Origin: Prauserella flavalba
Lineage (GTDB): Bacteria > Actinomycetota > Actinomycetes > Mycobacteriales > Pseudonocardiaceae
Assembly (NCBI RefSeq): GCF_003202235.1
Contig: NZ_MASU01000005.1
Span: forward strand, 1,736,001-1,800,000
Direction of reading: 5' to 3'
DNA length: 64,000 bases
In this document: in pieces, positions 24,808 through 44,636 of the stretch
How the letters are laid out: every line of letters starts with the position of its first letter
Numbering within the stretch: the stretch's first letter is position 1
Notes under the pieces: model-generated
Database searches by the model: none
The model's input: only the letters and a program-made list of their open reading frames with translations
Told to the model about the DNA's origin: nothing
Translations under genes and position numbers: made by a program

Positions 24808-25395
24808 TCAGCCGCGCGACTCCGCCGTCCAGCGCGCCGTCGCCGGATGCGGCAGGCGCAGGGCGTCGAGCGCCCTGCCGACGGTCTGGGTAATCATCGT
24901 GTCCAGCGAGTCGGGCCGCGTGTAGAACGCGGGCACCGGCGGCATGATCGTGGCGCCGATGTCGCACGCCTGCGCCAGCAGCCGGAGGTGCCCCGCGTGC
25001 AGCGGCGTCTCGCGCACCATCAGCACGAGCGGCCTCCGCTCCTTCAGCGTCACGTCGGCCGCGCGCACCAGCAGGGTGTCGTCGTAGCTGTTGGCGATGC
25101 CCGACAGCGACTTGATGCTGCAGGGCGCCACGAGCATGCCGTCGGTGGGGAACGACCCGCTGGAGATGGCGGCGCCGAGATCGTGCTCGGAGTAGACCTG
25201 GTCGGCGAGCGCCTTGACGTCGGCGACGCTCAGGTCCGTCTCCTGGGCGAGCGTCGCGCGGGCCGCCTTCGTGAACACGAGGTGCGTCTCGACACCGAGC
25301 TGGGACAACAACTCCAGGGCGCGGACGCCGTAGAGCACGCCCGAGGCGCCGCTGATTCCCACGACGATCCTGGGCGGGAACCGCTCCTCTTCCAT
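24808..25395 (-). CDS. ubiX: UbiX-like flavin prenyltransferase
   Basis: A 195-residue flavoprotein of the UbiX/Pad1 family, which attaches a dimethylallyl group to FMN to make the prenylated FMN that UbiD decarboxylases need. The FMN-binding loop IVVGISGASGVLYG opens the protein; PCSIKSLSGIA and RETPLHAGHLRLL carry phosphate- and isoprenoid-site residues. GGGAGG precedes the ATG. It ends an operon with ALDH, SDR and an MHS symporter; the only UbiD in the window is at 43254-44636, so the two halves of the system lie at opposite ends of the island. Confidence 0.9.
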   Translation of the reverse strand: MEEERFPPRIVVGISGASGVLYGVRALELLSQLGVETHLVFTKAARATLAQETDLSVADVKALADQVYSEHDLGAAISSGSFPTDGMLVAPCSIKSLSGIANSYDDTLLVRAADVTLKERRPLVLMVRETPLHAGHLRLLAQACDIGATIMPPVPAFYTRPDSLDTMITQTVGRALDALRLPHPATARWTAESRG

Positions 25396-25399
25396 GTGC

Positions 25400-26803
25400 C
25401 TACCTCCCGGCTCCGAAATGGACGTGCTTGAGCTCCGTGAACTGTTCGATGCCCTCGACACCGCGGGTACGGCCGAGGCCGGAGGCGCCGTGGCCGCCGC
25501 TGGGCATCTCCGCGTACGAGCGGTTGTAGCCGTTCACCCAGACCGTGCCCGCGCGCAGCCTGCGCGACACCCGCCACGCCCGGTCCAGGTCGCTCGTCCA
25601 CAGCGCCGCCGCGAGCCCGTACGGCGTCGCGTTCGCGAGCCGGACGGCATCGTCCTCGTCGTCGAACGGCTCGATGCTGAGCAGCGGGCCGAACAGGTCG
25701 TGCTGTACCAGCGGCGAGTCCGGCGCGGCGCCGGTGACCGCCGCCGGGGTGACGAAGTGCCCCGGCAGGCCGTCGGCATCGGCCGGCTCACCGCCGGTGA
25801 GCAGCCTCGCCCCGGTGCGCGCCAGGTCCACATACCCGGTGAACCGCTCCAGCGCGGGTGCGGAGATGAGCGGGCCGAGGTCGGTGTTCTCCTCCCGCGG
25901 ATCACCGGTACGCAGCGACCGGAGCACGTCGACCACGCGGTCGCGCACCCGGTCGAACACGCCGCGCTGCACGAGCAGCCGCGTACACGCCATGCACATC
26001 TGGCCGGTCGTGATCACCGAGGCCCGCGCCGCCGTCTCGGCCGCGGCGTCAACGTCGGCGTCGGCGAACACCGTCATCGCCGCCTTGCCGCCGAGTTCCA
26101 GCAGGGTGCGGGTCATGTCGGGCGCGGCCGCGGAACGGATGGCCGCGCCCACGGCCGTCGAGCCCGTGAACGCGACGGCCCGCACGAGCGGATGCGTCAC
26201 GAGCGCCTCGCCGACGAGCCCGTCCCCGGCGACGACCCGCACCACGTCCTCGCCGATACCCGCCTCGTGGGCGAGGCGCACGGCCCGCTGCGTGACCAGC
26301 GTGGTCTGCGGCGCGGGTTTCACGAGCGCGGTCACGCCGGCCGCGAGTGCGGGCGCCAGATCCCGCAGGAGCAGCAGCAACGGCCAGTTCCACGGCACGA
26401 TCAGCGCCGTGACCCCCACCGGCTCCCGCACCAGATGCGCCTGCGAGCCGTCCGGCAGGGTCCCCGCCCTGCCGTTGACCAACCGGGTGAGGCCCGCGTT
26501 GTAGCGCAGGGCGTCGACGGCGCCCGCCACCTCGATGCGGGCCTCGCGGACCGGTTTGCCGCTTTCGGCGACGAGTGCGGAGACCAGTTCGTCCCCGTGC
26601 CCGGCGAGCAGGTCCGCCCAGCGCCAGAGCGCGAGCTGCCGCAGCTTGGCGTCCACCGGCCAGCTGTCCCGCATCGCCTGGTCGGCCGCGTGCGCGGCCT
26701 TGTCGAGCTCCCCCGGCGTGACAGCGGCGACCTCGCCCAGCACGCGCAGGGTCGCCGGGTCGGCCGGGGTGGCGTCCTGCGGGATCTTCCAGTCCGTGTC
26801 CAT
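25400..26803 (-). CDS. NAD(P)-dependent aldehyde dehydrogenase
   Basis: A 467-residue ALDH. It has the PWNWPLLLLLRDLAPALAAG region, FTGSTAVG for NAD binding, the base Glu in LELGGKAAM, and the catalytic Cys in TGQMCMACTR; the C-terminal SGLGRTRGVEGIEQFTELK is typical. It would oxidise an aldehyde to the acid. Its start overlaps the SDR stop (TGATG). In the proposed pathway it converts the aldehyde made by the ThDP decarboxylase, as benzaldehyde dehydrogenase does in mandelate catabolism; a furanic aldehyde is the alternative substrate. Confidence 0.9.
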   Translation of the reverse strand: MDTDWKIPQDATPADPATLRVLGEVAAVTPGELDKAAHAADQAMRDSWPVDAKLRQLALWRWADLLAGHGDELVSALVAESGKPVREARIEVAGAVDALRYNAGLTRLVNGRAGTLPDGSQAHLVREPVGVTALIVPWNWPLLLLLRDLAPALAAGVTALVKPAPQTTLVTQRAVRLAHEAGIGEDVVRVVAGDGLVGEALVTHPLVRAVAFTGSTAVGAAIRSAAAPDMTRTLLELGGKAAMTVFADADVDAAAETAARASVITTGQMCMACTRLLVQRGVFDRVRDRVVDVLRSLRTGDPREENTDLGPLISAPALERFTGYVDLARTGARLLTGGEPADADGLPGHFVTPAAVTGAAPDSPLVQHDLFGPLLSIEPFDDEDDAVRLANATPYGLAAALWTSDLDRAWRVSRRLRAGTVWVNGYNRSYAEMPSGGHGASGLGRTRGVEGIEQFTELKHVHFGAGR

Positions 26804-27567
26804 CACACGAACACCCCGCCACCGTCGACGACCACGGTCTGCCCGGACACGAACGCGCTGGCGTCGCTGACGAGCCACAGCACCGCGCCCACCAGATCGT
26901 CCGGCCGCATCGCCCTGGGCAGCGAGCGGCTCGCGGCGGCGTTCGCGACGTAACCGTCGTCGTTGATCGCCCGGGTCGCCTCGTCGTCGACGAGACCCGG
27001 CGAGACGGCGTTGACGCCGATGCCGTCGCGGCCGAGTTCCCTGGCCGCGGCCCTGGTGAGGCCCTCCACCGCGGCCTTCGAGGCCACGTAGTGGGCGAAC
27101 CCGGCGGCGCCGGTGCGCGTGACCACGGAGGCGACGTTGACGATGCGGCCGCCGCCCCGTGCCCGCAGCGCGGGCAGCGCCGCCCGGATCACCTGCCACG
27201 TGCCGCGCACGTTGACGCGCAGCACGGTGTCCCAGTCCGCCGCGGTGAGCTCCTCCAGCGGGCGTTTGTGGCCGAGCGCCTTGTAGACGGCGGCGTTGTT
27301 CACCACCGCGTCCAGTCCGCCGAAGCGGTCCACGGCCAGTCGCACCGCACCGTCCACATCGGAGTCGTCGGTGATGTCGCAGCGGGTGAAGACCGCGCTG
27401 CCGGGCCCGTCGGCGCCCGCCTTCTCCGCCTGCTCCGCCCCGTCGGCGAGGTCGGCGGCGACCACGTCGGCCCCCGCCGCCGTGAGCGCCCGCAGATAGG
27501 TGGCACCGATGTCTCCCGTGCAGCCGGTGAGCAGCACGACCTTGCCACGCAGGTCGGGTGCGGTCAT
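26803..27567 (-). CDS. Short-chain dehydrogenase/reductase
   Basis: A 254-residue classical SDR. The cofactor loop is TGCTGDIG (about residues 15-22), the NNAA motif is present, and the catalytic Ser-Tyr-Lys set ends in YVASK. It ends with the usual GQTVVVDGG. Probably an alcohol dehydrogenase or ketoreductase of the catabolic island (for example furfuryl alcohol to aldehyde), but substrate is not readable. Coupled by ATGA to the MHS gene and by TGATG to the ALDH. Confidence 0.86.
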   Translation of the reverse strand: MTAPDLRGKVVLLTGCTGDIGATYLRALTAAGADVVAADLADGAEQAEKAGADGPGSAVFTRCDITDDSDVDGAVRLAVDRFGGLDAVVNNAAVYKALGHKRPLEELTAADWDTVLRVNVRGTWQVIRAALPALRARGGGRIVNVASVVTRTGAAGFAHYVASKAAVEGLTRAAARELGRDGIGVNAVSPGLVDDEATRAINDDGYVANAAASRSLPRAMRPDDLVGAVLWLVSDASAFVSGQTVVVDGGGVFV

Positions 27568-28916
27568 GAGACTTCCTCTCTGTCCGAAACGGTCGCCCTC
27601 GGGGCTTCCTCGTTCTCCATGGAGCCCTTGGTCTCCGGGCTGATCACGTTCGCCACGAGGAACACGGCGACCATGACGACCAGGAAAACCATGAGCCTGC
27701 CGGGCACGTCGGACAGCCCGGGGCTCGCCAGGTTCACGAACGTGGGCATGAGCCCGCCGACCATGAAGCCGAGGTTCCAGCAGACCGCCGTGCCGCGGGA
27801 ACGCAGCGACGTCGGGTAACGCTCGTTCAGGAACACCATCACGGGCGAGTAGGCGGCGTTGGCCAGGAACGCCAGCAGGATCGAGTACCACAGGATCGCC
27901 GTGGTGTCACCGGGATCGCTGCTCGTGATCAGCCACACCAGCAGCGGCAGCGCGACCAGGTTGACGCCGCCGAAGAGCAGCATCGTGCGGCGCCTGCCGA
28001 GGTGCTCGGACAGCTCCCCGGCGATGATCGTCGCGACCACCACGCCGAGGCTGGAGACGAGCAGGATCACGCCCTGCACCGTGCCCCTGACGCCGGTGAC
28101 CTCACCGAGCAGCGTCGGCAGGTAGCCGGAGGTCAGGTAGTACTGGGAGCCCGCTCCGGCGACGAGCACGATGTTGAGCGCGAACATCCTTCCCCGGCCG
28201 CCGCGCACCAGGTCGCTGATGCGCACCTTCGCGGGCGGGCCCGCCTGCTGGGCGGCCTTCCACAGCGGCGACTCCTCGACGCCGCGCACCACCAGGTAGC
28301 TCAGCATCGCCGCGACCAGACCGGCGAAGAACATCACACGCCAGCCCCACACGTCGAACTCGTCACCGGGGAAGAGGTGGTTGACGAGAATGAACAGCCC
28401 GCTGGCCAGCGCGGCGCCCAGCCCGGCCCCGCCACCGCCGACGAGCCCGGACATCAGGCCGCGCCAGCGCGGCGGCACGCTCTCCGTGCCCAGGGTGTGG
28501 GTGGCCGCGACGACCCCGCCCACGAACACACCCTGCACCAGGCGCAGTGCCAGGAACAGCAACGGTGCGGCGAGCCCGGCGGCGGCGTAGGTGGGCACGG
28601 CGCCCATCGCCGCGGTCGACAGCCCGACCCCGGCGAGCACGATCACCATCGTCTTCTTGCGCCCGCTCCGGTCGGCGACGGCGCCGAAGATCGCCGCACC
28701 CGCGGGGCGCAGCAGCACGCTCACCGCGAACGAGGCGTACACGGCGGCGAGGCTGAGTGTCGGGCTGTGCGCGGGGAAGATCAGCTCGCCGACCGTGCCC
28801 GCGATGTAGAGCAGGATGAACAGGTCGAACAGATCGAACGCCCAGCCCGCGACCGACGTGAAGGCCGCGTACAGGGTGGCACGACGGGAGAGCCCGCCCG
28901 TGGCGGGAGCCGACAT
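27564..28916 (-). CDS. MHS-family (MFS) aromatic/carboxylic acid symporter
   Basis: A 450-residue, 12-helix major facilitator. Signatures are FDLFILLYIAGTVGELIFP, AAIFGAVADRSGRKKTMV between helices 2 and 3, and RLVQGVFVGGVVAATHTLG. It is first in the MHS-SDR-ALDH-UbiX operon and, by analogy with the transporters in hmf clusters, probably imports the acid substrate. Its promoter region (28917-29034) contains a perfect palindrome. Confidence 0.87.
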   Translation of the reverse strand: MSAPATGGLSRRATLYAAFTSVAGWAFDLFDLFILLYIAGTVGELIFPAHSPTLSLAAVYASFAVSVLLRPAGAAIFGAVADRSGRKKTMVIVLAGVGLSTAAMGAVPTYAAAGLAAPLLFLALRLVQGVFVGGVVAATHTLGTESVPPRWRGLMSGLVGGGGAGLGAALASGLFILVNHLFPGDEFDVWGWRVMFFAGLVAAMLSYLVVRGVEESPLWKAAQQAGPPAKVRISDLVRGGRGRMFALNIVLVAGAGSQYYLTSGYLPTLLGEVTGVRGTVQGVILLVSSLGVVVATIIAGELSEHLGRRRTMLLFGGVNLVALPLLVWLITSSDPGDTTAILWYSILLAFLANAAYSPVMVFLNERYPTSLRSRGTAVCWNLGFMVGGLMPTFVNLASPGLSDVPGRLMVFLVVMVAVFLVANVISPETKGSMENEEAPRATVSDREEVS

Positions 28917-28987
28917 GACCCACCTCCTTGTGAGAATCGCGCCTGGTAGGCATTACAGTGCGCCGCGCGACGCGCGGCGATGGGCAG

Positions 28988-29010
28988 TTGCCTACCGCGG
29001 CGGTAGGCAA
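28988..29010. promoter_or_regulatory. Perfect 23-base palindrome upstream of MHS operon
   Basis: TTGCCTACCG-N3-CGGTAGGCAA, with a further GGTAGGCA half-copy at about 28945-28952 nearer the MHS start. Either an operator for the MHS-SDR-ALDH-UbiX operon or a terminator hairpin of the LysR gene that ends at 29035; the extra half-site favours an operator. Confidence 0.5.
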
Positions 29011-29034
29011 CGGCTATGGCAGTGACTGTGAGAA

Positions 29035-29961
29035 CTAGACGCCCAGCCCGAGACCGTCCACTGTGGTGTCAGCGGTGTCGGCACCGAACCGCCTGACCTC
29101 GGTGAGCAGCAGGTCGAGCAGGGCCAGCGCGGCGGGAGCGAGCTGGCCGCCCGCGCGCCACACGACACCGAGCTCGCGGGAGTCCCGTGGATCGTTCAGC
29201 CGGACCGTCGGTTCGTAGCCGGAGGCGACGAGCCGCGGCACGACCGAGACGCCGACGCCGTTGCGGACCATCCCGCACAGCACGGACAGCTGCTCGGTCT
29301 CGACGGTCACCTTCGGGGTGAAGCCGTGCCTGTGGCACGCCGTCTCCAGAATGCTCCGCAGGCCCGAACCCTGTTGCATGCCCACGAAGTCGTCGCCGGA
29401 CAGCTCCGCGAGGTCGAGCTCGGCCCGGTCGGCGAGCCGGTGCCCCGGCGGCAGCATCGCCACCATCGGTTCGCGGATCAGTACCCTGCCGGTGATTCCC
29501 GGCCGTTCCCACGGCGCCCGCACCACGGCGAGGTCCAGTTCGCCCACCTGCACCATGCGCTCGAACTCCGCGGAGACGTTGTGCTCGATCAGCCGCAGTT
29601 CGACGTCCGGGTAGGCGGCGCGATAGTCCGCCAGGACCTTCGGCAGCAGCGTCGCCCCGACGCTCGGCAGCGCCCCGATCGCGAGCCTGCCGCGCTGCAG
29701 GTCGCGCACCGCGACGGCTTCCTCCCGCGCGCGCTCCAGGTGGAACAGCGCCGGGCGAGCGTGTTCGAGGAACGCCTCGCCCGCAGTGGTCAGCGTGACC
29801 TTGCGGCCCAGCCGTTCGAACAACGCGACGCCGAGTTCCTTCTCCAGCTTGCGGATCTGCACCGACAGTGACGGCTGGGCGAGGTAGAGCACCTCGGCGG
29901 CGCGGGTGAAGCTGCCCGCGTCGGCCACTGCCGCCACGTACCGGAGCTGGTGGAGTTCCAT
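29035..29961 (-). CDS. LysR-family transcriptional regulator
   Basis: A 308-residue LysR regulator. The N-terminal winged helix MELHQLRYVAAVADAGSFTRAAEVLYLAQPSLS-type region covers residues 1-60; the periplasmic-binding-protein-like sensor domain spans about 90-300. It lies between two catabolic operons read in the same direction, as LysR regulators do in hmf clusters. An element at 30044-30068, also found at the PadR/ligase promoter, lies 83 bases before its start. It probably activates the flanking operons in response to a furanic or aromatic acid (inference). Confidence 0.88.
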   Translation of the reverse strand: MELHQLRYVAAVADAGSFTRAAEVLYLAQPSLSVQIRKLEKELGVALFERLGRKVTLTTAGEAFLEHARPALFHLERAREEAVAVRDLQRGRLAIGALPSVGATLLPKVLADYRAAYPDVELRLIEHNVSAEFERMVQVGELDLAVVRAPWERPGITGRVLIREPMVAMLPPGHRLADRAELDLAELSGDDFVGMQQGSGLRSILETACHRHGFTPKVTVETEQLSVLCGMVRNGVGVSVVPRLVASGYEPTVRLNDPRDSRELGVVWRAGGQLAPAALALLDLLLTEVRRFGADTADTTVDGLGLGV

Positions 29962-30068: not shown

Positions 30069-30085
30069 TTCTGAGCCACGCGACG

Positions 30086-32184: not shown

Positions 32185-32964
32185 TCACCGGCCCTGGAAC
32201 TTCGGCGCGCGCTTCTCGGCGAACGCGGCGACGCCCTCGGCGAAGTCCTTGCTGGAGCGCAGCATCGAGTACGCCTTGCGCTCCAGCTCGATGCCGGAGT
32301 AGAGCGGGGCGTCGACGCCCTTGTCGAGCACCTCCTTGGCGGTACGCGCGGCCAGCGGCGAGAAGCCGAGCAGCACGCCCACGACGCGCTCCACCTCGGC
32401 GTCCAGCGCGGCCCGGTCGGGCACGACGTTGGCCACGAGGCCCCAGTCTCCGGCCTGCCGCGCCTTGATCCTGCTCGCGGTCATGATGTGGTATTTGGCC
32501 CTGGACAGGCCGATGAGCCGCGCGAGCCGCTGGGTGCCGCCGGAGCCGGGGATCATGCCGAGCCGCATCTCGGGCAGGGCGAATTCGCTGCGCTCGGTGC
32601 ACACGCGGATGTCGGTGGACAGCGCCAGCTCGAGGCCCACGCCGAAGCAGTAGCCGTCGACGGCGGTGATCACCGGCTTGGGGCTGCGTGCCGGTGCGGT
32701 CACGTTGTGCCCGAGGTCGGTGAAGTCGATCGGGTCGACCTCCATGAAGCCGGGGATGTCACCGCCCGAGGAGAAGTGCTCGCCCTCGCCCCGGATCACC
32801 ACGACCTGGATGTCGTCGTCGGCGTCGATCTCGGCGAAGCGGTCGGCCATCACCTGCCGCGTCTCCCAGGTGATGATGTTGAACTTGCCGTGGTCGAGCG
32901 TCAGGTAGGCGACGCGGCCGTCGTGGCCGCGCTCCAGCCGGATCTCGCCTCCGGTGAGTGCCAT
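32185..32964 (-). CDS. Enoyl-CoA hydratase-family enzyme (2-oxoglutaroyl-CoA hydrolase-like)
   Basis: A 259-residue crotonase-fold protein. Oxyanion-hole segments are GEHFSSGGDI (about 61-70) and GYCFGVGLELAL (about 104-115); LGMIPGSGGTQRL follows, but its acidic residues differ from classical hydratases. It is inserted between the large and medium subunits of the Mo hydroxylase, which suggests it acts on the hydroxylated acyl-CoA. The hmf pathway uses a crotonase-fold hydrolase (HmfE) to release 2-oxoglutarate, and GEHFSSGG, GYCFGVG and IPGSGG resemble what I recall of HmfE. Function inferred. Confidence 0.78.
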   Translation of the reverse strand: MALTGGEIRLERGHDGRVAYLTLDHGKFNIITWETRQVMADRFAEIDADDDIQVVVIRGEGEHFSSGGDIPGFMEVDPIDFTDLGHNVTAPARSPKPVITAVDGYCFGVGLELALSTDIRVCTERSEFALPEMRLGMIPGSGGTQRLARLIGLSRAKYHIMTASRIKARQAGDWGLVANVVPDRAALDAEVERVVGVLLGFSPLAARTAKEVLDKGVDAPLYSGIELERKAYSMLRSSKDFAEGVAAFAEKRAPKFQGR

Positions 32965-32966
32965 GC

Positions 32967-35384: not shown

Positions 35385-36931
35385 GTCCGCTCCTGCAGGT
35401 CGTGTTCGGCGAGCACCTCGTAGTGCCCGGCCCCGAGCTCGCGGCGCAGGATCTTGCCCACGGCCGACTTCGGGATCTCGGTGACGGCGACGACGCGCTT
35501 GGGCCGTTTCAGGGAGGGCAGGCCCGCGCCGTCCCGCGCGAACTCCGACAGCGTCTCGACGGCCAGCGCGGGCTCGGTTCCCGGTTCGGGGACGAAGAAC
35601 GCGGTGACGGCCTGGCCCCAGCGGTCGTCGGCCGTGCCCGCGACGACCACCTCACGCACCGCGGGGCAGCGGACGAGCGCGTCCTCGATCTCGTCGGGGT
35701 AGATGTTCTCGCCGCCGGAGTTGATCATGTCGTCGACGCGGCCCGCGACCCACAGGTCGCCGTCCTCGTCGGCCACGGCGAGGTCGCCGGGGAAGTACCA
35801 GCCGTCCCGGATCGACCTGGCGTCGGCGTCGGGGCGGTTCCAGTACCCGGCGAACGCCTCGGGACCGGACATCGACACGGCGAGCTGGCCCTGCTCCCCC
35901 GGCGCCACTACGTCCCCGGGACTCGCGCCCGGCTCGGGTGCGACGAGCCGGACGCGGGAGAACACCCCGGCCCTGCCCGCGCTGCCGGGTTTCGCGCGGA
36001 CGTCGGGACCGATCGTGAACGTGTAGATCTCGGTGCTGCCGAAGTGGTTGACGAACCGCGACGGCCGCAGGGTCTCCGTCAGCCGCTCGGCCAACGCCGT
36101 GGTCATCGCGGCACCGGCGTAGGCGAGCTTGTCCACCGACGTGGCCTCGCCGAGCCTGCCGGTGTGCAGCAGGGACCAGTAGATCGTGGGCACCAGGTAG
36201 AGGCAGCTCACGCGCTCGCGGGTGATCAGCTCCAGCGCCTCGTCCGCGTCGAACCGCGCCTGGGGCACCCACGTGCCCGCCGAGAGCACCGTCGCGAGCA
36301 GCGTGCGCATGCCCATCGTGTGGAACAGCGGCATGACGCCGAGTGTGGTGTCGAAGTAGGACTGTCCACTCTGGATGAGATGGGCCAGCGCGGCGTAGTG
36401 CTCGGCGGAGTGGCTGCGGGGAACGCCCTTGGGCTTGCCGGTGGTTCCCGAGGTGTAGAGCATGACGCTGGTCGCGGCCGGGTCGGCCGAGCCGAACGGG
36501 GTGCCTGCGCCGCCGCGTGCGGCGAGCTGCTCGATCGTCCCCGCGCCCGGACCCGAGCGCAGGCGCGGCACCCCGGGCACGGCGTCCAGCGCGGCCGTCA
36601 CCAGCTGCTCGTTGGCCTCGTCGTGGATCACCAGCGCGGGAGCGGCGTCGGCGACGCAGTAGGCGAGTTCCTCGGGGCCGAACCGGAACGACAGCGGCAC
36701 CGACACGGCGCCGAGCTTCTGCGCGGCCAGGTGCAGGCTGGCCAACGGAAGCCCGCCGGACAGCACGAGCACCACCCGGTCGCCGGGACGCACGCCCTGC
36801 CCGGCCAGCGCGAGGGCGAGCCGGTCGGTGCGGTCGTCCCATTCGGCGTAGCTGAGGGGCTCGGGGCCTCCGACGGCGCGGCGATCCGGATATCGCTCGG
36901 CGGTCCAGCGCAGCGCTGTGCCCAGATCCAT
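35381..36931 (-). CDS. Acyl/aryl-CoA ligase (candidate 2-furoyl-CoA synthetase)
   Basis: A 516-residue AMP-forming ligase. The P-loop is YTSGTTGKPKG, A5 reads NHFGSTEIY, A7 YFPGDL, A8 VAGRVDDMINSGGENIYPDEIE and A10 ends PKSAVGKILRREL with the catalytic Lys. It would form the CoA thioester of an aromatic or heteroaromatic acid. The start at 36931 has GGAGAG upstream; six codons of extra open frame precede it. It is first in the Mo-hydroxylase operon and corresponds to HmfD in the hmf comparison. Confidence 0.88.
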   Translation of the reverse strand: MDLGTALRWTAERYPDRRAVGGPEPLSYAEWDDRTDRLALALAGQGVRPGDRVVLVLSGGLPLASLHLAAQKLGAVSVPLSFRFGPEELAYCVADAAPALVIHDEANEQLVTAALDAVPGVPRLRSGPGAGTIEQLAARGGAGTPFGSADPAATSVMLYTSGTTGKPKGVPRSHSAEHYAALAHLIQSGQSYFDTTLGVMPLFHTMGMRTLLATVLSAGTWVPQARFDADEALELITRERVSCLYLVPTIYWSLLHTGRLGEATSVDKLAYAGAAMTTALAERLTETLRPSRFVNHFGSTEIYTFTIGPDVRAKPGSAGRAGVFSRVRLVAPEPGASPGDVVAPGEQGQLAVSMSGPEAFAGYWNRPDADARSIRDGWYFPGDLAVADEDGDLWVAGRVDDMINSGGENIYPDEIEDALVRCPAVREVVVAGTADDRWGQAVTAFFVPEPGTEPALAVETLSEFARDGAGLPSLKRPKRVVAVTEIPKSAVGKILRRELGAGHYEVLAEHDLQERT

Positions 36932-36950: not shown

Positions 36951-37002
36951 AGTTCGGGGACGGGAAGGGGAACCAGTCGACGATCATCTGATTGGAATCG
37001 TC

Positions 37003-37027
37003 TGTTTCAGACTGTCCAGAACGTACG
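37003..37027. promoter_or_regulatory. Shared catabolic-island element, copy 2 (PadR/ligase divergent promoter)
   Basis: It starts TGTTTCAGACTGT and ends CGTACG, matching 18 of 25 bases of the copy at 30044-30068. It lies between the divergent ligase operon (start 36931) and the PadR gene (start 37042), 15 bases before the PadR ATG, so a protein bound here could block or activate both. Confidence 0.55.
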
Positions 37028-37041: not shown

Positions 37042-37626
37042 ATGTCAAGCGTCCGGCTGTCCACGACGTCCTACGTCGTCCTCGGCATGATCGCCCTGCG
37101 CGGTCCGTCGACGCCCTACGACCTCAAACGCGCGATCGGCCGCTCCGTCGGCTACTTCTGGAGCTTCCCGCACGCGCAGCTGTACTCGGAGCCGAAGCGG
37201 CTCGAGGACGCCGGCCTGCTGGAGCTCGAGGAGGAGCAACACGGGCGCAGGCGCAAGCTCTACACGATCACCACCGAGGGCGAGACCGCTCTGCGGACCT
37301 GGCTCAGCGAACCGGTGAACGCGCATTTCGAGCTGCGCGACGTCGCCGAGATCAAGCTGTTCTTCAACGAGCTGGCCACCCCCGAGGACGTCGCGCGCCT
37401 GGCCTCGGGGCAGATCGAGCAGCACGAACGCCGGATCGCCGAATACGAGTCCATGCAGAAGCGCTACAGCGACATCGACGACGTTGCCAGCCGCATGGTG
37501 ACCCTCGAACTCGGGCTCGGCATGGAACGCGCCGCACTGAGCTTCTGGCGCGATGTGGCCGGCCGGGTCGAACGCGGTGAGTTCCCGGCTCCCCCGGCGC
37601 GGGAGGCGGCGCGGCGCGCCAGGTGA
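37042..37626 (+). CDS. PadR-family transcriptional regulator
   Basis: A 194-residue PadR regulator with a winged helix (residues 8-95: TSYVVLGMIALRGPSTPYDLKRAI, then GRRRKLYTIT) and a long C-terminal coiled dimerisation region (about 100-180: HERRIAEYESMQKRYSDID). PadR itself represses phenolic-acid decarboxylase genes until a phenolic acid binds. It is divergent from the ligase/Mo-hydroxylase operon and 100 bases upstream of the enolase-superfamily gene, so it probably controls entry to the pathway. Confidence 0.88.
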   Translation: MSSVRLSTTSYVVLGMIALRGPSTPYDLKRAIGRSVGYFWSFPHAQLYSEPKRLEDAGLLELEEEQHGRRRKLYTITTEGETALRTWLSEPVNAHFELRDVAEIKLFFNELATPEDVARLASGQIEQHERRIAEYESMQKRYSDIDDVASRMVTLELGLGMERAALSFWRDVAGRVERGEFPAPPAREAARRAR

Positions 37627-37727: not shown

Positions 37728-38885
37728 ATGGGGCTGCCCGGCGACGACCTGCGCATCACGGAGGTGACCGCGTTCGGTGTCTCCGTGCCCACCCCGCCGC
37801 ACGCTCAGGTGGATCTCGGCTTCGGCCGCTCGGTCAAGCGCGACGCGGTGCTGGTGCGCGTGCGGACCGAGGCCGGGATCACCGGCTGGGGCGAATCGCA
37901 CCACGGCCGCGCGCCGGGCACCGTCGCGCACCTGATCGACACCGCGCTCGCACCGCTGCTCACCGGCGCCGACGCCGCCGACGTCACCGGGGCAGGCAGC
38001 ACGCTCGCCCGTGCACAGCTGCGGGGGCTCGGTCTCGGCACCGCCGCGGCCATCGCGATGAGCGGCATCGACCTCGCGCTGTGGGACATCCGCGCCAAGG
38101 CGGCGGGCTGGCCGCTGCACCGCCTCCTCGGCGGCGCCCCGCGCGCGATCCCGGCCTACGCGGGCGGCGTCGCGCTCGGCTACCAGCCTCCGCCGGTGCT
38201 CGCCGAGGAGGTGCATCGCCTGCGCGAGCGCGGTTTCCGTGCCGTGAAGCTGCGCATCGGTGACAACCCGGGCGCCGACGCCGAGCGCGTCGCCGCCGTC
38301 CGCGAGGCCCACCCGGACACGACCATCCTCACGGACGCCAACACCGCGTACACACTGGAGCAGGCGCTGGCGGTGCTGCCCGCGCTCGCCGAGCACGAGG
38401 TCGGGTGGCTGGAGGAACCGCTGCCCCGTACCGACGCCGCGGGCTACGCCGAGCTGGCCCGTCGCGGCACCGTGGCGCTGGCCGCGGGTGAGAACCACTT
38501 CACCCGCTACGAGTTCGCCGAGCTCGTGCGGGCCGGCAGCGTCCGCGTGCTCCAACCCGATCTGTCCAAAGTGGGTGGACTGACCGAGGCGCTGCGGGTG
38601 GCGGCGCTGGCCTCGGCGTGGCACCTGCCGGTGCACCCGCACACGGCGAGCACCGGGGTGAACATGGCCGCGACCGCTCATTTCCTGGCCGCGATCGACA
38701 ACGCGGGCTACTTCGAGGCCGACGTCTCGGCGAACGCGGCCCTGCACACCGAGCTCACCTCCGCCCCGTTCACCCCGGGCCAGGACGGGACCGTGCGACC
38801 ACTCGACGCGCCGGGAATCGGCGTCGACATCGACGAGGACTTCCTGGCGGCACACCCCCTGATCGACGGGCCCGGCTTCCGCTGA
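37728..38885 (+). CDS. Mandelate racemase/muconate-lactonizing (enolase superfamily) enzyme
   Basis: A 385-residue enolase-superfamily protein. The lid domain (1-130) is followed by the barrel: K-x-R in AVKLRIG, metal ligands D in LTDANTA, E in WLEEPL and E in AGENHF, and the His base in HPHTAS. The K-x-R rather than K-x-K pair and PHTAS loop place it in the mandelate racemase subgroup, which holds racemases and sugar-acid dehydratases; the two cannot be told apart here. The ATG at 37728 follows AGAGAGG. With the FMN dehydrogenase and ThDP decarboxylase downstream, a mandelate-like alpha-hydroxy acid is the simplest substrate. Confidence 0.85.
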   Translation: MGLPGDDLRITEVTAFGVSVPTPPHAQVDLGFGRSVKRDAVLVRVRTEAGITGWGESHHGRAPGTVAHLIDTALAPLLTGADAADVTGAGSTLARAQLRGLGLGTAAAIAMSGIDLALWDIRAKAAGWPLHRLLGGAPRAIPAYAGGVALGYQPPPVLAEEVHRLRERGFRAVKLRIGDNPGADAERVAAVREAHPDTTILTDANTAYTLEQALAVLPALAEHEVGWLEEPLPRTDAAGYAELARRGTVALAAGENHFTRYEFAELVRAGSVRVLQPDLSKVGGLTEALRVAALASAWHLPVHPHTASTGVNMAATAHFLAAIDNAGYFEADVSANAALHTELTSAPFTPGQDGTVRPLDAPGIGVDIDEDFLAAHPLIDGPGFR

Positions 38886-38935: not shown

Positions 38936-40348
38936 ATGCAGTCAGCGTGGCTCGTACTACTCATCGTCGGCGGCTACATCGCGATACTGGCCGCCATCAG
39001 CTTCCTGGCGGGCCGGTCGTCACGGACCTCTGGCTCGTTCGCCAGCGGCGGAAAGGTGTTCCCCGCCGTCCTCATCGGCTTCCTGCTGGCCTCGGAGTTC
39101 ATCGGCACCACCGCCAGCATCGGCACGGCGCAGGCCGCGTACGAGTCCGGCATCTCGGCGGCGTGGAACGTCGTCTCGCTCGGCGTCGGCTTCGTGCTGT
39201 TCTCACTGCTGCTCGCGCGCAAGTACCGCGACCTGGGCGAGAACACGATCTCCGGTGCGCTCGCGCGAACCTACGGCCAGCCCGTCCGCATCGCGACCTC
39301 GCTCGTGATGGTGTGCGCGCTGCTCATCGTCGCGGTCTCGGTCTACGCCAGTGGCGGCGCCATCCTGTCGAGCCTGCTGGGCATCGATCGCTCGCTCGCG
39401 ATCGTCCTGGTCGGCATCCTCGCGACGGCCTACGTCAGCGTCGGCGGCATGCGCTCGGTGGTGTACACGAACTTCCTGCACGCGCTGGTGAAGCTCGTCG
39501 GTATCGTCGTACTGGCCGTGGTCGGGGTGACCCGCGTCGGCGGCATGGACCAGCTCACGGCCTCACTGCCGCCGGACATGTTCTCGCTCGACGGCGTCGG
39601 CGTCTCGCAGATCCTGGCCTGGATGATCGCCGGAGTCGGTGCGACGTTCGCGACGCAGTACGTCGTGCAGGCCATCACCACGGTCGGCGACAGCACCAAG
39701 GCGCAGCGTGCGGGCTTCTACTCGGCGGTCGTGCTCATCCCGTACGGCATCCTCGCCGCGCTCGTCGGTGTGTGCGCGGCGGCGCTCTTCCCCGGTATCG
39801 CGAGCATTCAGGCCATGCCCGCGCTGGTCGTGGAACTCGACCCGCTGCTCGCCGGGGTCGTGGTGGCCGGGCTCGCGGGTGCGATGTTCGGCACGATCGC
39901 GGCGCTCACCATCGGCGCCTCGACGCTGCTGTTCAAGGATTTCTACCAGCCGTACTTCAACAAGACGTCCGACGAGCGCAGGAACCTGGTGTTCATCCGC
40001 GTCGCGGCGGGCGTGGCCGGGCTGCTGCCGATCGTGCTCGCGCTCTACGCCTCCGACGTGCTCGCGGTGACGTTCCTCGCCAAGGCACTGCGCGCCACCC
40101 TCGCCGTGCTGGTGCTGCTCATGTTCTACGCTCCGCGGTACGGCACCCGCGGTGGTGCACTGTGGACGATCGTGATCGCGCTCGTGGCGACCATCGGCTG
40201 GTTCCTCGCCGGCAGCCCGTTCGGCGTCGACGAGGCCTACGTGGCGGTCGCGGTGCCCATCGTGGTAATGACGCTGAGCCAGCTGTTCCGCCGCCGGGGC
40301 GCCGACGCACCCGCCGAAACCACGTCGACGGAACCGGTGGCCCGATGA
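38936..40348 (+). CDS. Sodium:solute symporter (SSS family)
   Basis: A 470-residue integral membrane protein with 12-13 hydrophobic segments. SFLAGRSSRTSGSFASGGK after helix 1, ASEFIGTTASIGTAQAAYESG, and the GGMRSVVYTNFLHALVKL stretch (the family's sodium-binding/helix 5 region) identify the sodium/solute symporter family, whose members import monocarboxylates, pantothenate, proline or hydroxy acids. GGAGG lies upstream of the ATG. It is the probable importer for the substrate of the downstream enzymes. Confidence 0.88.
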   Translation: MQSAWLVLLIVGGYIAILAAISFLAGRSSRTSGSFASGGKVFPAVLIGFLLASEFIGTTASIGTAQAAYESGISAAWNVVSLGVGFVLFSLLLARKYRDLGENTISGALARTYGQPVRIATSLVMVCALLIVAVSVYASGGAILSSLLGIDRSLAIVLVGILATAYVSVGGMRSVVYTNFLHALVKLVGIVVLAVVGVTRVGGMDQLTASLPPDMFSLDGVGVSQILAWMIAGVGATFATQYVVQAITTVGDSTKAQRAGFYSAVVLIPYGILAALVGVCAAALFPGIASIQAMPALVVELDPLLAGVVVAGLAGAMFGTIAALTIGASTLLFKDFYQPYFNKTSDERRNLVFIRVAAGVAGLLPIVLALYASDVLAVTFLAKALRATLAVLVLLMFYAPRYGTRGGALWTIVIALVATIGWFLAGSPFGVDEAYVAVAVPIVVMTLSQLFRRRGADAPAETTSTEPVAR

Positions 40349-41988
40349 CCGCGACCGTCGCGACGCAACTCGTCGCCAGTCTCAAGGCCCACGGCGTGCG
40401 CTACGTCTTCGGTGTGCCGTCCGAAAGCTTCACGACCCTGCTGGACGCGCTCTACGCCGACGGCGAGATCACGTTCGTTCCCGCCCGGCACGAGGGCGGC
40501 GCCGCGTTCATGGCCGAGGCGCACGCAGCCGCGAGCGGCGGCATCGGCGTGGTGCTCGGCGGCAGGGCCGTTGGCGCGGCGAACCTGTCGATCGGCGTGC
40601 ACACCGCGCGCGAGAACTCCACCGCGATGCTCGTGCTCGTGGGTCAGCTCCATTCCCGCCACCGGGGCAGGGAAGGTTTCCAGGAGACCGATCTGCCCGC
40701 GTTCCTCGGCCCGGTCGCGAAACACGCCGTCGAGGAGTCGGATCCGCACCGGGTCCCGCCCGCGGTGGCGCGCGCGCTGACCCTCTCCCGCACCGGCCGG
40801 CCGGGGCCCGTGGTGCTGTCGCTGCCGGAGGACGTTCTCGACCACGAGACCGCCGCGGTGCCCGCGCTCCCCCGCGCGGGCACGCGCCCCGCGCCGTCGC
40901 CCGAGGACGTCACCGCGGTGCGGAAGCTGCTGCTCGGCGCCGCACGCCCGGTGGTGATCGCCGGGGCGGGGGTGAAGCTCAGCGGGGCCGAGGACGACCT
41001 CGTCGCGTTCGCCGAGGCGTGGGAGGTCCCGGTGCTCGCGGCGTGGCGGCGCCACGACGTGTTCCCCAACGAGCACCCGCGTTACGCCGGGCACCTGCAG
41101 ATGGGCACCCATCCCGACCTGGTCGCGACGGTGCGCGAGGCCGACCTCGTCGTCGCGCTCGGCACGCGGCTCGGCGAGATCACCACGCAGGGCTACACCG
41201 CCCCCGCCGCGGGCCAGCGCATCGTGCAGGTCGACGTCGAACCGGGCCAGCTCGGCAAGGCCTACCCGGTCGAGCTCGCCGTGCACGCGGACGCGCTCGC
41301 CACGATGCGGGCGCTGGGAAAGCCGGGTGAGCGCCGCGATCCCGACTGGGCGGACGAACGTCAGCGGGTGTACCGGCGGGTGACCACAGTGGACCCCGCC
41401 GAGAACCGCGAGCACGTCGACAACCGGCAGATCGTCCGTGCGCTGCGCGCGGGCCTGCCGCCCGATGCGGTGGTGACCAACGACGCGGGCAACTTCGCGG
41501 GCTGGCTGCACACGTTCTTCCGGTTCCCGCTGGCCCGCACCTACGTGGGCGCGGCCTCCGGGGCGATGGGTTACGCGTTGCCCGCGGCGATCGGGGCGAA
41601 GCTCGCCGCCCCGGACCGCACGGTCGTGTCGGTGTCCGGCGACGGCGGCTTCCTCATGACGGTCCAGGAGCTGGAGACCGCGGTCCGGCTGCGCCTGCCG
41701 CTCGTGTCGCTCGTGTTCAACAACAACATGTACGGCTCGATCAGGATGCACCAGGAACGCCGGTATCCCGGCCGCGTCATCGGCTCCGAGCTCGGCAACC
41801 CTGACCTGGTCGAGCTGGCGCGCGCGTTCGGTGCCTTCGGCACCAGGGTCGCCGCCGACGCGGAGTTCCCTGCCGCACTGGAGGCCGCGCTGGCCGCGGA
41901 CCGCCCGGCCGTCGTGGAGATCGTCACCGACCCCGGGCGGATCTCGGTCTGGAACACCCTCGACGAGCTACGCGAGAGGACGGCATGA
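40345..41988 (+). CDS. ThDP-dependent alpha-keto-acid decarboxylase/acetolactate-synthase-like enzyme
   Basis: A 547-residue thiamin-diphosphate enzyme with the usual three domains. The cofactor-activating Glu is in PARHEGGAAFMAEA (about residue 49), the central domain is near 190-330, and the Mg-ThDP motif runs from SGDGGFLMTV to VFNNNMYGS (about 431-462). The family covers benzoylformate decarboxylase, acetolactate synthase and related lyases; here the adjoining alpha-hydroxy-acid dehydrogenase argues for decarboxylation of an aryl- or heteroaryl-glyoxylate to an aldehyde. Coupled by ATGA at both ends. Confidence 0.86.
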   Translation: MTATVATQLVASLKAHGVRYVFGVPSESFTTLLDALYADGEITFVPARHEGGAAFMAEAHAAASGGIGVVLGGRAVGAANLSIGVHTARENSTAMLVLVGQLHSRHRGREGFQETDLPAFLGPVAKHAVEESDPHRVPPAVARALTLSRTGRPGPVVLSLPEDVLDHETAAVPALPRAGTRPAPSPEDVTAVRKLLLGAARPVVIAGAGVKLSGAEDDLVAFAEAWEVPVLAAWRRHDVFPNEHPRYAGHLQMGTHPDLVATVREADLVVALGTRLGEITTQGYTAPAAGQRIVQVDVEPGQLGKAYPVELAVHADALATMRALGKPGERRDPDWADERQRVYRRVTTVDPAENREHVDNRQIVRALRAGLPPDAVVTNDAGNFAGWLHTFFRFPLARTYVGAASGAMGYALPAAIGAKLAAPDRTVVSVSGDGGFLMTVQELETAVRLRLPLVSLVFNNNMYGSIRMHQERRYPGRVIGSELGNPDLVELARAFGAFGTRVAADAEFPAALEAALAADRPAVVEIVTDPGRISVWNTLDELRERTA

Positions 41989-43244
41989 GCAACGAGACTC
42001 CCCGAGCACTGACCGTCCGGCTGCGGCGGCGGCGCGGCGCGGCCTGGGGGCCCGGCAGCGGCGTGGGCAGGGAGGCCGCGCTGAAGCGGCGGCTGCCCTC
42101 GCTCACCGACGTCGAACGCGCGGCCCGCAGGCGGCTGCCCCGGTTCGCCTACGACTTCGTGGCGGGAGGCACCGGCGACGACCTCGGCGTGCGGCGCAAC
42201 CGGACCGCGCTCGACGGGATCGAGATCGTCCCTCGCTACGGCGAGCTGCCCGCCGTCGGCACCGAGACGACCCTGTTCGGCCAGACCTACGCGAGCCCGA
42301 TCGGCATCGCCCCCGCCGGGCTCGACGGGCTCGCCTGGCCGGACGCGACCCGGCATCTCGCGGCCACCGCGGCGCACGCGAACATCCCCTACATCACCGG
42401 CACGCTCGCGTCCGCGTCCATCGAGGAGGTCGCCGCCCGCGCCCCAGGCCGCACCTGGTTCCAGCTCTACGGGCTGCCCGCCGAGAGTCACCGCGTGACC
42501 TTCGACCTGGTGCGCCGCGCCGCCGACGCGGGAGCCGAGGCGCTCGTCGTCGCCGTCGACGCGCCCGTGCGGTCCAAGCGGCCGAGGGACCTGCGGCACG
42601 GCCTCGTCGTGCCGTTCCGCCCATCGTTCTCGACGGCGCTGCAGGTGGCGAGCGCGCCCAGCTGGTCGCTCGCCGCGCTGCGCAGCCGCGTTCCCGTGTT
42701 CGCCAACATGGGCCGCTACGTGGGCGCCTCACCCACACTCGACGAGATCGCCGGCTTCGTGCAGGGCGGGTTGCGCGGAGGGTTCACCTGGGCAGAGATC
42801 GCCGAGCTGCGCCAGGCGTGGCCACGGGCACTGGTGGTCAAGGGCCTGCTGCATCCCGGCGACGCCGAGCGCGCGGTCGAGGCCGGTGCCGACGGCGTGC
42901 TCGTGTCCAACCACGGCGGCAGGCAGTCCGACGCCGCGCCCGCCGCGATCGACGTGCTGCCCGCCGTCACCCGCGCGGTCGGCTCGGCCGCGACGGTGCT
43001 CTTCGACAGCGGGATCCGTTCCGGTCTCGACGCGGCGAGGGCGCTCGCGCTCGGCGCCGACGCGGTGTTCTGCGGGCGGGCCTTCCTGCTCGGGCTCGCC
43101 GCGGCGGGCAGGACCGGCGCCGATCACGTCGCCGCGTTGCTCACCGAGGAGCTCCGCACCGCATTGGGCCAGTCCGGCGTCGCGGGCCCGAAAGGGCTGC
43201 GCGAGCTCGACATCCGTCACCCCACCGCCTGGAACTTCGGCTGA
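41985..43244 (+). CDS. FMN-dependent alpha-hydroxy-acid dehydrogenase
   Basis: A 419-residue member of the lactate/mandelate/glycolate oxidase family. RLPRFAYDFVAGGTGDD opens the barrel, IAPAGLDGLAWPD binds the flavin, and the catalytic His lies in VSNHGGRQSD with the following DSGIRSGLD and ALGADAVFCGRAF phosphate-binding strands. A 30-residue basic N-terminal extension precedes the fold. It oxidises an (S)-2-hydroxy acid to the keto acid, in a position equivalent to MdlB of mandelate catabolism. Confidence 0.9.
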   Translation: MSNETPRALTVRLRRRRGAAWGPGSGVGREAALKRRLPSLTDVERAARRRLPRFAYDFVAGGTGDDLGVRRNRTALDGIEIVPRYGELPAVGTETTLFGQTYASPIGIAPAGLDGLAWPDATRHLAATAAHANIPYITGTLASASIEEVAARAPGRTWFQLYGLPAESHRVTFDLVRRAADAGAEALVVAVDAPVRSKRPRDLRHGLVVPFRPSFSTALQVASAPSWSLAALRSRVPVFANMGRYVGASPTLDEIAGFVQGGLRGGFTWAEIAELRQAWPRALVVKGLLHPGDAERAVEAGADGVLVSNHGGRQSDAAPAAIDVLPAVTRAVGSAATVLFDSGIRSGLDAARALALGADAVFCGRAFLLGLAAAGRTGADHVAALLTEELRTALGQSGVAGPKGLRELDIRHPTAWNFG

Positions 43245-43253
43245 GAGGACAGC

Positions 43254-44636
43254 ATGACACTTCCACCTGGTGCGCGGTTGCGCACATGGCTCGACAGGTT
43301 GCAGGAGACCGGACGGCTCGCGCTCGCCGAGCGCGGAGTCGATCTCCGCTTCGGCGTCGCCGGTGTCGCGAACCGGCTCGACGGCACCCAGGCCACCCTG
43401 TTCCCGAAGCCGGGCGGGCATCCGGTGCCGGTGGTCTCGGGACTGCTGTCCCAGCGCGCCTGGATGGCCGAGGCCGCCGGGGTCGCCGAGCCCGACCTCG
43501 TGGCTCGATTCCAGCAGGCGTGCCGGGAGCCGGTGCCGTCGGCGCCGGTCACCGACGGCGCGTGCCAGGAGGTCGTGCACACCGACGTCGACCTCGGCAG
43601 GCTGCTGCCCCTGCCCACGCACAACGAGCACGACCACGGCGCCTACCTCACGGCGGGACTGCTGATCACCCGTGACCGGGAGACCGGTACGCAGAACGTA
43701 TCGATCCACCGGCTCCAGGTCAGCGGACCCGACCGGCTCGGCGCACTGCTGCTGCCCCGGCACACCCTCGCGTTCTTCCGTCACCGCGAACGCCTCGGCG
43801 AGGACCTCGACGTGGCGATCGTGATCGGCGCCGACCCGCTCACCCTCATGGCCTCGCAGGCCGCGGTGCCGCTCGGGCAGGACGAGCTGGAGATCTCCGG
43901 CGCGCTGCGCGGCGAACCGCTGCCCGTGGTGCGCTGCCTCGACAGCGACATCATGGTTCCTGCCGACGCCGAGATCGTGCTGGAGGGCAAGCTGCTGGCC
44001 GACGTCCGCGAGCCGGAAGGCCCGTTCGGCGAGTTCCCGCAGTACTACGGGCAGCGCGCCGACCGGCACGTGATCGCGCTGAGCACCGTCACCCACCGGC
44101 GGGACCCGCTCTTCCACACCATCGTCGGCGGCGGCAGGGAACACCTGCTGCTCGGCTGCATTCCGAGGGAAGGCTCGTTCCTCTCCGAGCTGCGCCGCAA
44201 CTTCCCGTGCGTCACCGGCGTGCACCTCTCCCTCGGCGGCACCTGCCGGTACCACCTGTACGTGCAGGTCGACGATCCCGCACCGGGCGAGGCGAAGAAC
44301 GTCCTGCTCGCCGCGCTCGCCGTGCACTACGACGTCAAACACGTGACCGTGGTGGACTCCGACGTCGACGTCACCGACCCCACGGAGGTCGAATGGGCCG
44401 TGGCGACACGGTTCCAGGCCGATCGCGACCTCGTCGTCGTGCAGGGCACCCAAGGGTCCAAACTGGACCCGTCAACCGTGAACGGGGTCGGCGCGAGGCT
44501 CGGCTTCGACGCCACCGTCCCGGCCGGGGCCGAACCCATGCGCTTCCTGCGGATCCGGGTCCCGGGCGAGGAGGACCTGGACGTCGGGGCGCTGACGAGC
44601 CCCGCACCGGCAGCGTGGCGCGACGCGGTGCGCTGA
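43254..44636 (+). CDS. UbiD-family prenylated-FMN-dependent decarboxylase
   Basis: A 460-residue reversible (hetero)aromatic acid decarboxylase. Prenyl-FMN and metal-site residues lie in QNVSIHRLQV and the catalytic E-R-E set includes EGPFGEFPQYYG. Family members decarboxylate hydroxybenzoates, cinnamates, pyrrole-2-carboxylate and furan-2,5-dicarboxylate (HmfF). GAGAGGACAGC precedes the ATG, nine bases after the FMN dehydrogenase stop. It needs the UbiX product from 24808-25395. The pairing with a furoyl-type ligase and Mo hydroxylase favours a furan or pyrrole dicarboxylate (inference). Confidence 0.88.
   Translation: MTLPPGARLRTWLDRLQETGRLALAERGVDLRFGVAGVANRLDGTQATLFPKPGGHPVPVVSGLLSQRAWMAEAAGVAEPDLVARFQQACREPVPSAPVTDGACQEVVHTDVDLGRLLPLPTHNEHDHGAYLTAGLLITRDRETGTQNVSIHRLQVSGPDRLGALLLPRHTLAFFRHRERLGEDLDVAIVIGADPLTLMASQAAVPLGQDELEISGALRGEPLPVVRCLDSDIMVPADAEIVLEGKLLADVREPEGPFGEFPQYYGQRADRHVIALSTVTHRRDPLFHTIVGGGREHLLLGCIPREGSFLSELRRNFPCVTGVHLSLGGTCRYHLYVQVDDPAPGEAKNVLLAALAVHYDVKHVTVVDSDVDVTDPTEVEWAVATRFQADRDLVVVQGTQGSKLDPSTVNGVGARLGFDATVPAGAEPMRFLRIRVPGEEDLDVGALTSPAPAAWRDAVR

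Follow-up and report, generated by a model that had tools for sequence, protein, structure and literature searches.

The 64,000-nucleotide stretch of the Prauserella flavalba genome analyzed here (contig NZ_MASU01000005.1, positions 1,736,001 to 1,800,000; the window) holds a predicted furan catabolic island of 16 genes at positions 24808-44636. All 16 are intact open frames, as judged from translations of the open reading frames (ORFs) and from Pfam and NCBIfam matches, and every enzyme that a preliminary description of the sequence had named there was confirmed in this way. The genes form two divergent sets. Read from 36931 down to 24808, the minus strand encodes an acyl-CoA ligase, the large subunit of a molybdenum (Mo) hydroxylase, a crotonase-fold enzyme, the flavin adenine dinucleotide (FAD) and 2Fe-2S subunits, a LysR regulator, a metabolite:H+ symporter of the major facilitator superfamily (MHS/MFS), a short-chain dehydrogenase/reductase (SDR), an aldehyde dehydrogenase (ALDH) and UbiX. 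The plus strand encodes a PadR regulator, an enolase-superfamily protein, a sodium:solute symporter (SSS), a thiamine diphosphate (ThDP) enzyme, a flavin mononucleotide (FMN) hydroxy-acid dehydrogenase and UbiD. We use "lox" as our own label for the FMN 2-hydroxy-acid dehydrogenase beside hmfF; it is not a family name.

The island is tightly packed, with four 4-base overlaps, and the crotonase-fold gene does lie among the Mo hydroxylase genes, as had been described, between those for the large and FAD subunits. The suggestion of one operon stands for the enolase, ThDP and FMN enzymes, which can share a plus-strand operon, but not for the island as a whole; because the sets diverge, such an operon would be possible only for the enolase, SSS, ThDP, FMN enzyme and UbiD genes. 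Because many genomes share the core cluster, we regard the grouping of the island genes as beyond chance. The features are as follows, with L073 denoting the cluster of Pseudomonas umsongensis DSM 16611.

24808..25395, minus: UbiX flavin prenyltransferase (psfC/hmfG role), predicted to supply prenyl-FMN to UbiD; NCBIfam NF004685, 251 bits against a cut-off of 188; 59% identity to UbiX of L073
25400..26803, minus: ALDH, PsfA-like, putatively 5-formylfuroate to 2,5-furandicarboxylate (FDCA); ALDH models, all below cut-off; 40% to the L073 ALDH; PsfA role from the consulted part of PMC12064950
26803..27567, minus: SDR, PsfG-like, putatively 5-hydroxymethyl-2-furoate (HMFCA) to 5-formylfuroate; SDR models; 45% to the L073 SDR, order conserved
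27564..28916, minus: MHS/MFS transporter, HmfT-like (putative HMFCA uptake); PF07690; TIGR00883 218 bits, under its cut-off of 443; 49% to the L073 transporter
29035..29961, minus: LysR regulator; PF00126, PF03466
30086..31300, minus: HmfC-like 2Fe-2S subunit with a C-terminal CoxG domain; PF01799, PF00111, PF06240
31287..32177, minus: HmfB-like FAD subunit; PF00941, PF03450; 38-46% to its counterparts in hmf clusters of Proteobacteria and Geobacillus
32185..32964, minus: HmfE-like crotonase-fold protein, predicted 2-oxoglutaryl-CoA hydrolase; PF00378; 45-54% to the crotonase-fold proteins in hmf clusters of Proteobacteria and Geobacillus
32967..35384, minus: HmfA-like Mo subunit, predicted furoyl-CoA dehydrogenase; PF02738, PF20256; tblastn 599-722 bits to hmfA-position genes on four plasmids; tree grouping
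35381..36931, minus: HmfD-like ligase, predicted 2-furoyl-CoA synthetase; PF00501; 41-52% to ligases of non-actinobacterial hmf clusters
37042..37626, plus: PadR-like regulator; PF03551, 45.8 bits against a cut-off of 27; adjoins hmfD in several relatives
37728..38885, plus: enolase-superfamily protein, K-x-R (K174, R176), D278, H305, accessory; PF13378; 3BJS 420 bits; motif alignments
38936..40348, plus: SSS transporter, HmfI-like; PF00474; 62% to the L073 SSS
40345..41988, plus: ThDP enzyme, PRK08199 family, type A, proposed 2-oxo-acid decarboxylase; NF006052, 642 bits against a cut-off of 539
41985..43244, plus: FMN 2-hydroxy-acid dehydrogenase (lox), R196 and F58; PF01070 379 bits; collinear with MdlB residues 37-399; residue signature and clade
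43254..44636, plus: HmfF-like UbiD-family protein, predicted FDCA decarboxylase; TIGR00148, 332 bits against a cut-off of 245; 6H6V 430 bits; 67% to L073

A predicted furoate and furandicarboxylate core

The core of the island appears to be a complete cluster of the hmf kind for the catabolism of 5-hydroxymethylfurfural (HMF), FDCA and 2-furoate, its functions assigned from homologues in a pathway that has been proven genetically in another organism. The closest solved structure to the UbiD protein is 6H6V (430 bits), identified as HmfF in the consulted part of PMC8988006, and the runner-up, an indole-3-carboxylate decarboxylase, scores 199 bits. UbiD is 67% identical to its counterpart in P. 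umsongensis DSM 16611 and 97% identical to that of Prauserella endophytica (L058), where it is surrounded by the same genes; it is the single UbiD found in the 8.1-Mb host genome (E 0.001). A histidine that has been described, in a source consulted in part, as key to furan specificity aligns at His297, yet all 12 lower-scoring relatives share it, and we set it aside as a marker that does not discriminate.

The Mo large subunit also points to furoate. In tblastn searches it matched hmfA-position genes of Geobacillus pHTA426 best (722 bits), followed by Dinoroseobacter (642), Paraburkholderia pBN1 (602) and Cupriavidus pENH92 (599). In a 40-row FastTree phylogeny, which carried a long-branch warning, 13 actinobacterial and 19 other hmfA rows separate from eight genomic paralogues (of 12 paralogue loci fetched) on a branch with support of 100. 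We dropped assignments as a nicotinate, CO, xanthine or 4-hydroxybenzoyl-CoA enzyme, as all 13 NCBIfam models matched scored under cut-off and the tree groups the protein with hmfA. HmfD and HmfE are both present, by pairwise identities and not by trees: the ligase is 41-52% identical to HmfD counterparts, against 27-33% for the other ligases mapped, with one exception at 40% (Geobacillus L052), and the crotonase-fold protein is 45-54% identical to HmfE counterparts of other phyla.

The closest known system is the hmf cluster of Pseudomonas umsongensis GO16, named in the consulted part of PMC12064950 as hmfABCDE, hmfI, hmfF, hmfT, psfG, psfA, psfB and psfC. It shares the same 12 functions with the window (hmfABCDE, hmfI, hmfF, hmfT, psfG, psfA, LysR and UbiX). 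According to that source, deletion of hmfF in GO16 abolishes growth on HMF and FDCA and leaves growth on furoate, deletion of psfG or psfA abolishes growth on HMF and HMFCA, and loss of hmfI severely impairs growth on FDCA. The gene order of L073 (sss, ubiD, mhs, sdr, aldh, lysR, ubiX) agrees with the gene table in PMC12064950, and because of this order we equate the window SSS with HmfI and the MHS transporter with HmfT. The L073 contig begins at sss, and hmfABCDE was observed instead in two other Pseudomonas loci (L072 and L075). Unlike GO16, the window has two divergent sets, a CoxG fusion and hmfE between hmfA and hmfB; it has PadR where the GO16 table has AraC, and no XdhC-type gene is among its 16. 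The CoxG domain (PF06240) occupies residues 228-364 of the window 2Fe-2S subunit; in Geobacillus pHTA426, CoxG is encoded by a gene of its own, placed between those for the Mo and FAD subunits. Cupriavidus pENH92, Paraburkholderia pBN1 and Geobacillus pHTA426 have the Mo hydroxylase, ligase, crotonase-fold and UbiD set in common with the window. The first two differ in having a GMC oxidoreductase and no mapped SDR like that of the window, although an SDR is annotated about 4 kb away from the LysR gene of pBN1, and no lox, ThDP or enolase gene was mapped in the stretches fetched from any of the three.

By analogy with this pathway, HMF-derived acids would enter through the HmfT- and HmfI-like carriers and be oxidized to FDCA by the SDR and ALDH. 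HmfF, with prenyl-FMN from UbiX, would decarboxylate FDCA to 2-furoate, which would then be activated with CoA, hydroxylated and hydrolyzed to yield 2-oxoglutarate.

We then surveyed 297 Pseudonocardiaceae genomes sampled from a larger group (genomes are labeled G and loci L). An hmfF-type UbiD is present in 18 (at least 69% identity; next match 45%) and HmfA in 53 (at least 68%). All 18 UbiD genomes also hold HmfA (their next paralogue being at most 42% identical), which supports our reading of the core and places hmf clusters in this family. The literature matches listed included no report of an hmf core in Pseudonocardiaceae, although no search was aimed at that question.

Five genomes (G284, G236, G121, G211 and G154) have HmfA and lack both the hmfF-type UbiD and the lox clade. 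They carry instead a second UbiD group, 40-44% identical to that of the window, together with sdr, mhs, ubiX and lysR (L021, L022, L023, L027 and L028); in two of the five it lies within 6 kb of HmfA. We also considered marks of a mobile island and set them aside: the window holds no tRNA, and two of four sampled same-genus genomes (G014 and G053) lack the UbiD, HmfA and ThDP genes.

The hydroxy-acid dehydrogenase and its ThDP partners

In the six family genomes with lox orthologues (at least 66% identity; next match 44%), the gene lies directly beside hmfF, and the same six hold a ThDP orthologue. Among hmfA genomes, lox occurs in 6 of 18 with the hmfF-type UbiD and in 0 of 35 without it (Fisher p 0.0008, kinship ignored); once the five genomes that carry the second UbiD group are excluded, the counts are 6 of 18 and 0 of 30 (p 0.0015, kinship again ignored). 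A separate search of 346 Actinomycetota genomes returned no lox besides that of the window (E 1e-80). We also scanned named genomes, taking the best 80 UbiD loci (at least 59% identity) of a longer list; 25 of these are not over 20 kb, which makes absences soft. Twelve contain lox, and all 12 have a ThDP gene in the locus, of type A in four (two Prauserella, Pseudonocardia sp. KRD291 and Pseudomonas sp. CFII64), type B in one (Halomonas) and type C in seven (Salipiger, Roseomonas and five Azospirillum). Adding the window, G268 and G288 brings the genomes with lox and ThDP genes near hmfF to 15, spanning Actinomycetota, Gammaproteobacteria and Alphaproteobacteria. In G268, thdp, lox, ubiD (hmfF), sss, aldh, sdr, mhs and ubiX lie together about 326 kb from the hmfABCDE genes, a split suggesting that the two enzymes go with the FDCA side of the pathway.

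The 15 lox proteins fall on one side of a branch with 33 paralogues on the other (SH-aLRT 99, from a quick search with no bootstrap). The paralogues were lower-scoring matches chosen for fetching and not a random draw, and a 34th was dropped as a fragment. The window protein is collinear with the (S)-mandelate dehydrogenase MdlB over residues 37-399 (231 bits) and scores 264 bits against an L-lactate dehydrogenase model, under its cut-off; it passes the cut-off of none of the NCBIfam models shown. In the VSNHGGRQ motif, every lox protein conserves both His and Arg. Arg196, an idea set down ahead of the paralogue comparison, is found in all 15 and in none of the 33 chosen paralogues; it aligns with Asn in MdlB, Met in 4-hydroxymandelate oxidase and Ser in lactate oxidase. 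All 15 lox proteins have Phe at position 58, where all 33 paralogues have Tyr; the aligned residue is Tyr in MdlB, Phe in 4-hydroxymandelate oxidase and Tyr in lactate oxidase. We take the Arg196 position to correspond in glycolate oxidase to Leu161, a residue lining the substrate pocket. An additional arginine there, together with an HmfI-like carrier and HmfF in the same gene set, suggests that the substrate of lox probably carries a second carboxylate, as 5-carboxy-2-furylglycolate does.

The ThDP partner is more varied. Types A and B belong to the NCBIfam family PRK08199, the only model shown whose cut-off the window enzyme passes, and type C belongs to PRK08327. The top solved relatives of type C are benzoylformate decarboxylases (98.5 bits), with which it shares an aligned His. 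The pairing of a single lox clade with ThDP enzymes of three types suggests that what is conserved is their joint reaction, from 2-hydroxy-acid to aldehyde.

Some hmfF loci have a ThDP gene and no lox. In eight Alloalcanivorax and Stutzerimonas loci (L074, L078, L082, L085-L088 and L093) it is of type B; in L074, as in the lox-bearing L079, it follows genes for a DctM-type TRAP (tripartite ATP-independent periplasmic) transporter component and an NMT1_3 (TAXI-like) protein. In Roseomonas sp. KE2513 (L120), a type C gene directly follows hmfF and precedes an MHS gene and an hmfA-type operon. Six further loci (L035, L036 and L041-L044) have hmf genes and no orthologue of the ThDP enzyme, lox or the enolase. 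We considered a GlcD-like flavoprotein close to the Roseomonas locus L118 as a partner for the other enantiomer and discarded it as not general, since the other 85 loci gave one partial 34% match (L062).

A candidate furan 2-hydroxy-acid branch

We propose, with moderate confidence, that the island combines an hmf core with a two-enzyme branch next to hmfF through which a furan 2-hydroxy-acid would feed the FDCA pool. Lox would oxidize this acid to the 2-oxo-acid, the ThDP enzyme would decarboxylate it to an aldehyde, and ALDH would convert the aldehyde to FDCA (or furoate). The substrate would most likely be a diacid whose second carboxylate is held by Arg196, for example 2-hydroxy-2-(5-carboxyfuran-2-yl)acetate. 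More tentatively, and at somewhat less than even confidence, we suggest that this is an undescribed furan 2-hydroxy-diacid branch, in which one Arg-marked lox clade works with three ThDP types from two NCBIfam families across Actinomycetota, Gammaproteobacteria and Alphaproteobacteria; this would imply that the C7 diacid 5-carboxy-2-furylglycolate is a common natural compound whose role as a substrate has so far escaped notice.

The chemistry resembles that of the mandelate pathway of Pseudomonas putida, encoded by mdlABCD, in its order of a 2-hydroxy-acid dehydrogenase, a ThDP enzyme and an aldehyde dehydrogenase, and lox aligns collinearly with the (S)-mandelate dehydrogenase. In contrast to the mdl system, the window ThDP enzyme has closer relatives than benzoylformate decarboxylase, the enolase has a KxR motif, and Arg196 stands where MdlB has Asn. 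The preliminary description had read the island as a furoate half joined to a mandelate half. Its furoate half is borne out by the HmfA grouping, by UbiD being closest to HmfF 6H6V and by the place of the SDR, ALDH, MHS and SSS proteins in the known pathway; the clustering of the Mo hydroxylase with non-furan families, which it had named as evidence to the contrary, occurred neither with the NCBIfam models nor in the tree. Only part of the mandelate half survives: the route from 2-hydroxy-acid through 2-oxo-acid to aldehyde is the best reading, but the window ThDP enzyme is closer to other enzymes than to benzoylformate decarboxylase, and the enolase departs from the mandelate racemase motif. 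Nor are the two halves joined only here, since the 15 genomes with lox and ThDP genes near hmfF include Pseudomonas, Halomonas, Salipiger, Roseomonas and Azospirillum. In the Pseudonocardiaceae neighborhood survey it had proposed, six of the 18 genomes with an hmfF-type UbiD had lox adjoining it and also held the ThDP orthologue. The second part looks like a real, recurrent branch, better called a furan 2-hydroxy-acid entry at FDCA than a mandelate pathway, and the mandelate-type genes would be accessory to an hmf core that is not itself a patchwork. The core is of a known kind; for the branch, no published account joining lox or ThDP to hmf was found among the literature matches listed (titles and abstract starts).

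Several observations weigh against this proposal. The enolase, ThDP and FMN enzymes are extra relative to GO16, whose gene table, in the consulted part of its source, has no such branch, and 68 of the best 80 UbiD loci lack lox. Some of the genomes with lox are closely related (five are Azospirillum), and the Fisher values therefore treat them as more independent than they are. G026 has an ordinary lox paralogue (37-38% identity, Ala at 196) 1.6 kb past hmfF, which indicates that such neighbors can be accidental and that neighborhood alone proves little. Arg196 is one of 13 clade-specific lox columns, Phe58 being another, and its role is read solely from alignments. The closest solved relatives of the window ThDP enzyme are BbmA (261 bits) and acetolactate synthase (221), ahead of benzoylformate decarboxylase (153), and a 2-hydroxyacyl-CoA lyase nearly ties with the benzoylformate decarboxylases as the top relative of type C (97.5 against 98.5 bits). 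Finally, 9 of the 21 ThDP-bearing loci (eight type B and one type C) have no lox, and the ThDP enzyme may therefore have another job.

The strongest competitor, although an unlikely one, is that the branch takes plain 2-furylglycolate, for example from a fungal glucosone-cortalcerone route, to furfural and on to 2-furoate, with UbiD not involved. The enzyme logic would be that of mandelate catabolism, and furylglycolic acid has been obtained from glucose via the fungal product cortalcerone (PMC7910265, consulted in part), which gives one lead to a natural source. Set against this, lox tracks hmfF and not hmfA, being absent from all 35 hmfA genomes of the sampled family that lack that UbiD, and Arg196 suggests a second acid group.

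We consider it improbable that lox and the ThDP enzyme are a C2/C3 salvage unit, oxidizing glycolate or lactate and carboligating the products, that is merely lodged in the cluster. Models of acetolactate synthase and glyoxylate carboligase do match the ThDP enzyme, and those of L-lactate dehydrogenase match lox, but among the models shown the ThDP enzyme passes only the PRK08199 cut-off and lox none. A salvage unit also fits poorly with one lox clade having three kinds of ThDP partner near hmfF and with the 33 paralogues that lack Arg196, and a tartronate-semialdehyde reductase was not assigned among the 16 genes.

There is similarly little to commend the idea that lox oxidizes HMFCA, a stretched hydroxy-acid, to 5-formylfuroate, doubling the SDR, while the ThDP enzyme detoxifies aldehydes by carboligation. 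Phe58 in place of the Tyr of MdlB and of all 33 paralogues would agree with such a substrate, although 4-hydroxymandelate oxidase also has Phe, and its distant carboxylate could be held by Arg196. Yet the SDR is kept alongside lox in the window, G084, G041, G268 and L092, the VSNHGGRQ His and Arg are invariant in lox, and a ThDP gene is present in all 15 lox genomes.

CoA ligation and Mo hydroxylation would also suit pyrrole- or thiophene-2-carboxylate, but it is highly improbable that the core acts on such a five-ring heteroaromatic acid and not on furans, given a UbiD far from the pyrrole-2-carboxylate decarboxylase PA0254 (4ip2, 79 bits) and 67% identical to that of P. umsongensis, of which the GO16 strain loses FDCA growth without hmfF (PMC12064950, consulted in part).

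As FDCA and HMF are sought-after chemicals for making bio-based plastics, every enzyme at this node is of interest. The repeated presence of a hydroxy-acid branch near hmfF in different lineages points to an as yet unrecognized furan compound in nature, and the window lox and ThDP proteins offer a testable enzyme pair, with Arg196 as the residue to probe.

The enolase-superfamily protein and the regulatory surroundings

The enolase-superfamily protein is closest to 3BJS among solved structures (420 bits) and falls under the cut-off of all 15 NCBIfam models matched, dehydratases included. Asp278 and His305 align, and the motif is K-L-R; K-x-R is likewise found in 3BJS and in five of five relatives (52-94% identity). 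Mandelate racemase has a KxK motif, and the KxR of the window protein makes a racemase activity doubtful. G084 and Salipiger alone have close relatives of it within an hmf cluster; a further three family genomes have one at another site. We inspected relatives outside hmf clusters (L168-L170), and their context was not clear. In the KRD291 cluster, where lox and ThDP genes are present, a distant enolase-family gene (L039:14642-15943, 34% identity) with a K-L-K motif lies about 2 kb beyond UbiX and, to judge by this motif, could act as a racemase.

Two candidate regulatory elements lie within the island. A palindrome, GTCTGTTTCAGAC, at 37000-37012 occupies the ligase-PadR gap, where several relatives have a similar sequence. 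As a PadR operator it is a weak candidate, with one exact copy against 0.73 expected by chance (at most 2 mismatches). An inverted repeat, TTGCCTACCGCGGCGGTAGGCAA, at 28988-29010 between the LysR and MHS genes could be an operator or a terminator. Outside the island, two amidohydrolase-family genes (21080-24073) lie near a gene for a peptide-type solute-binding protein (18759-20375).

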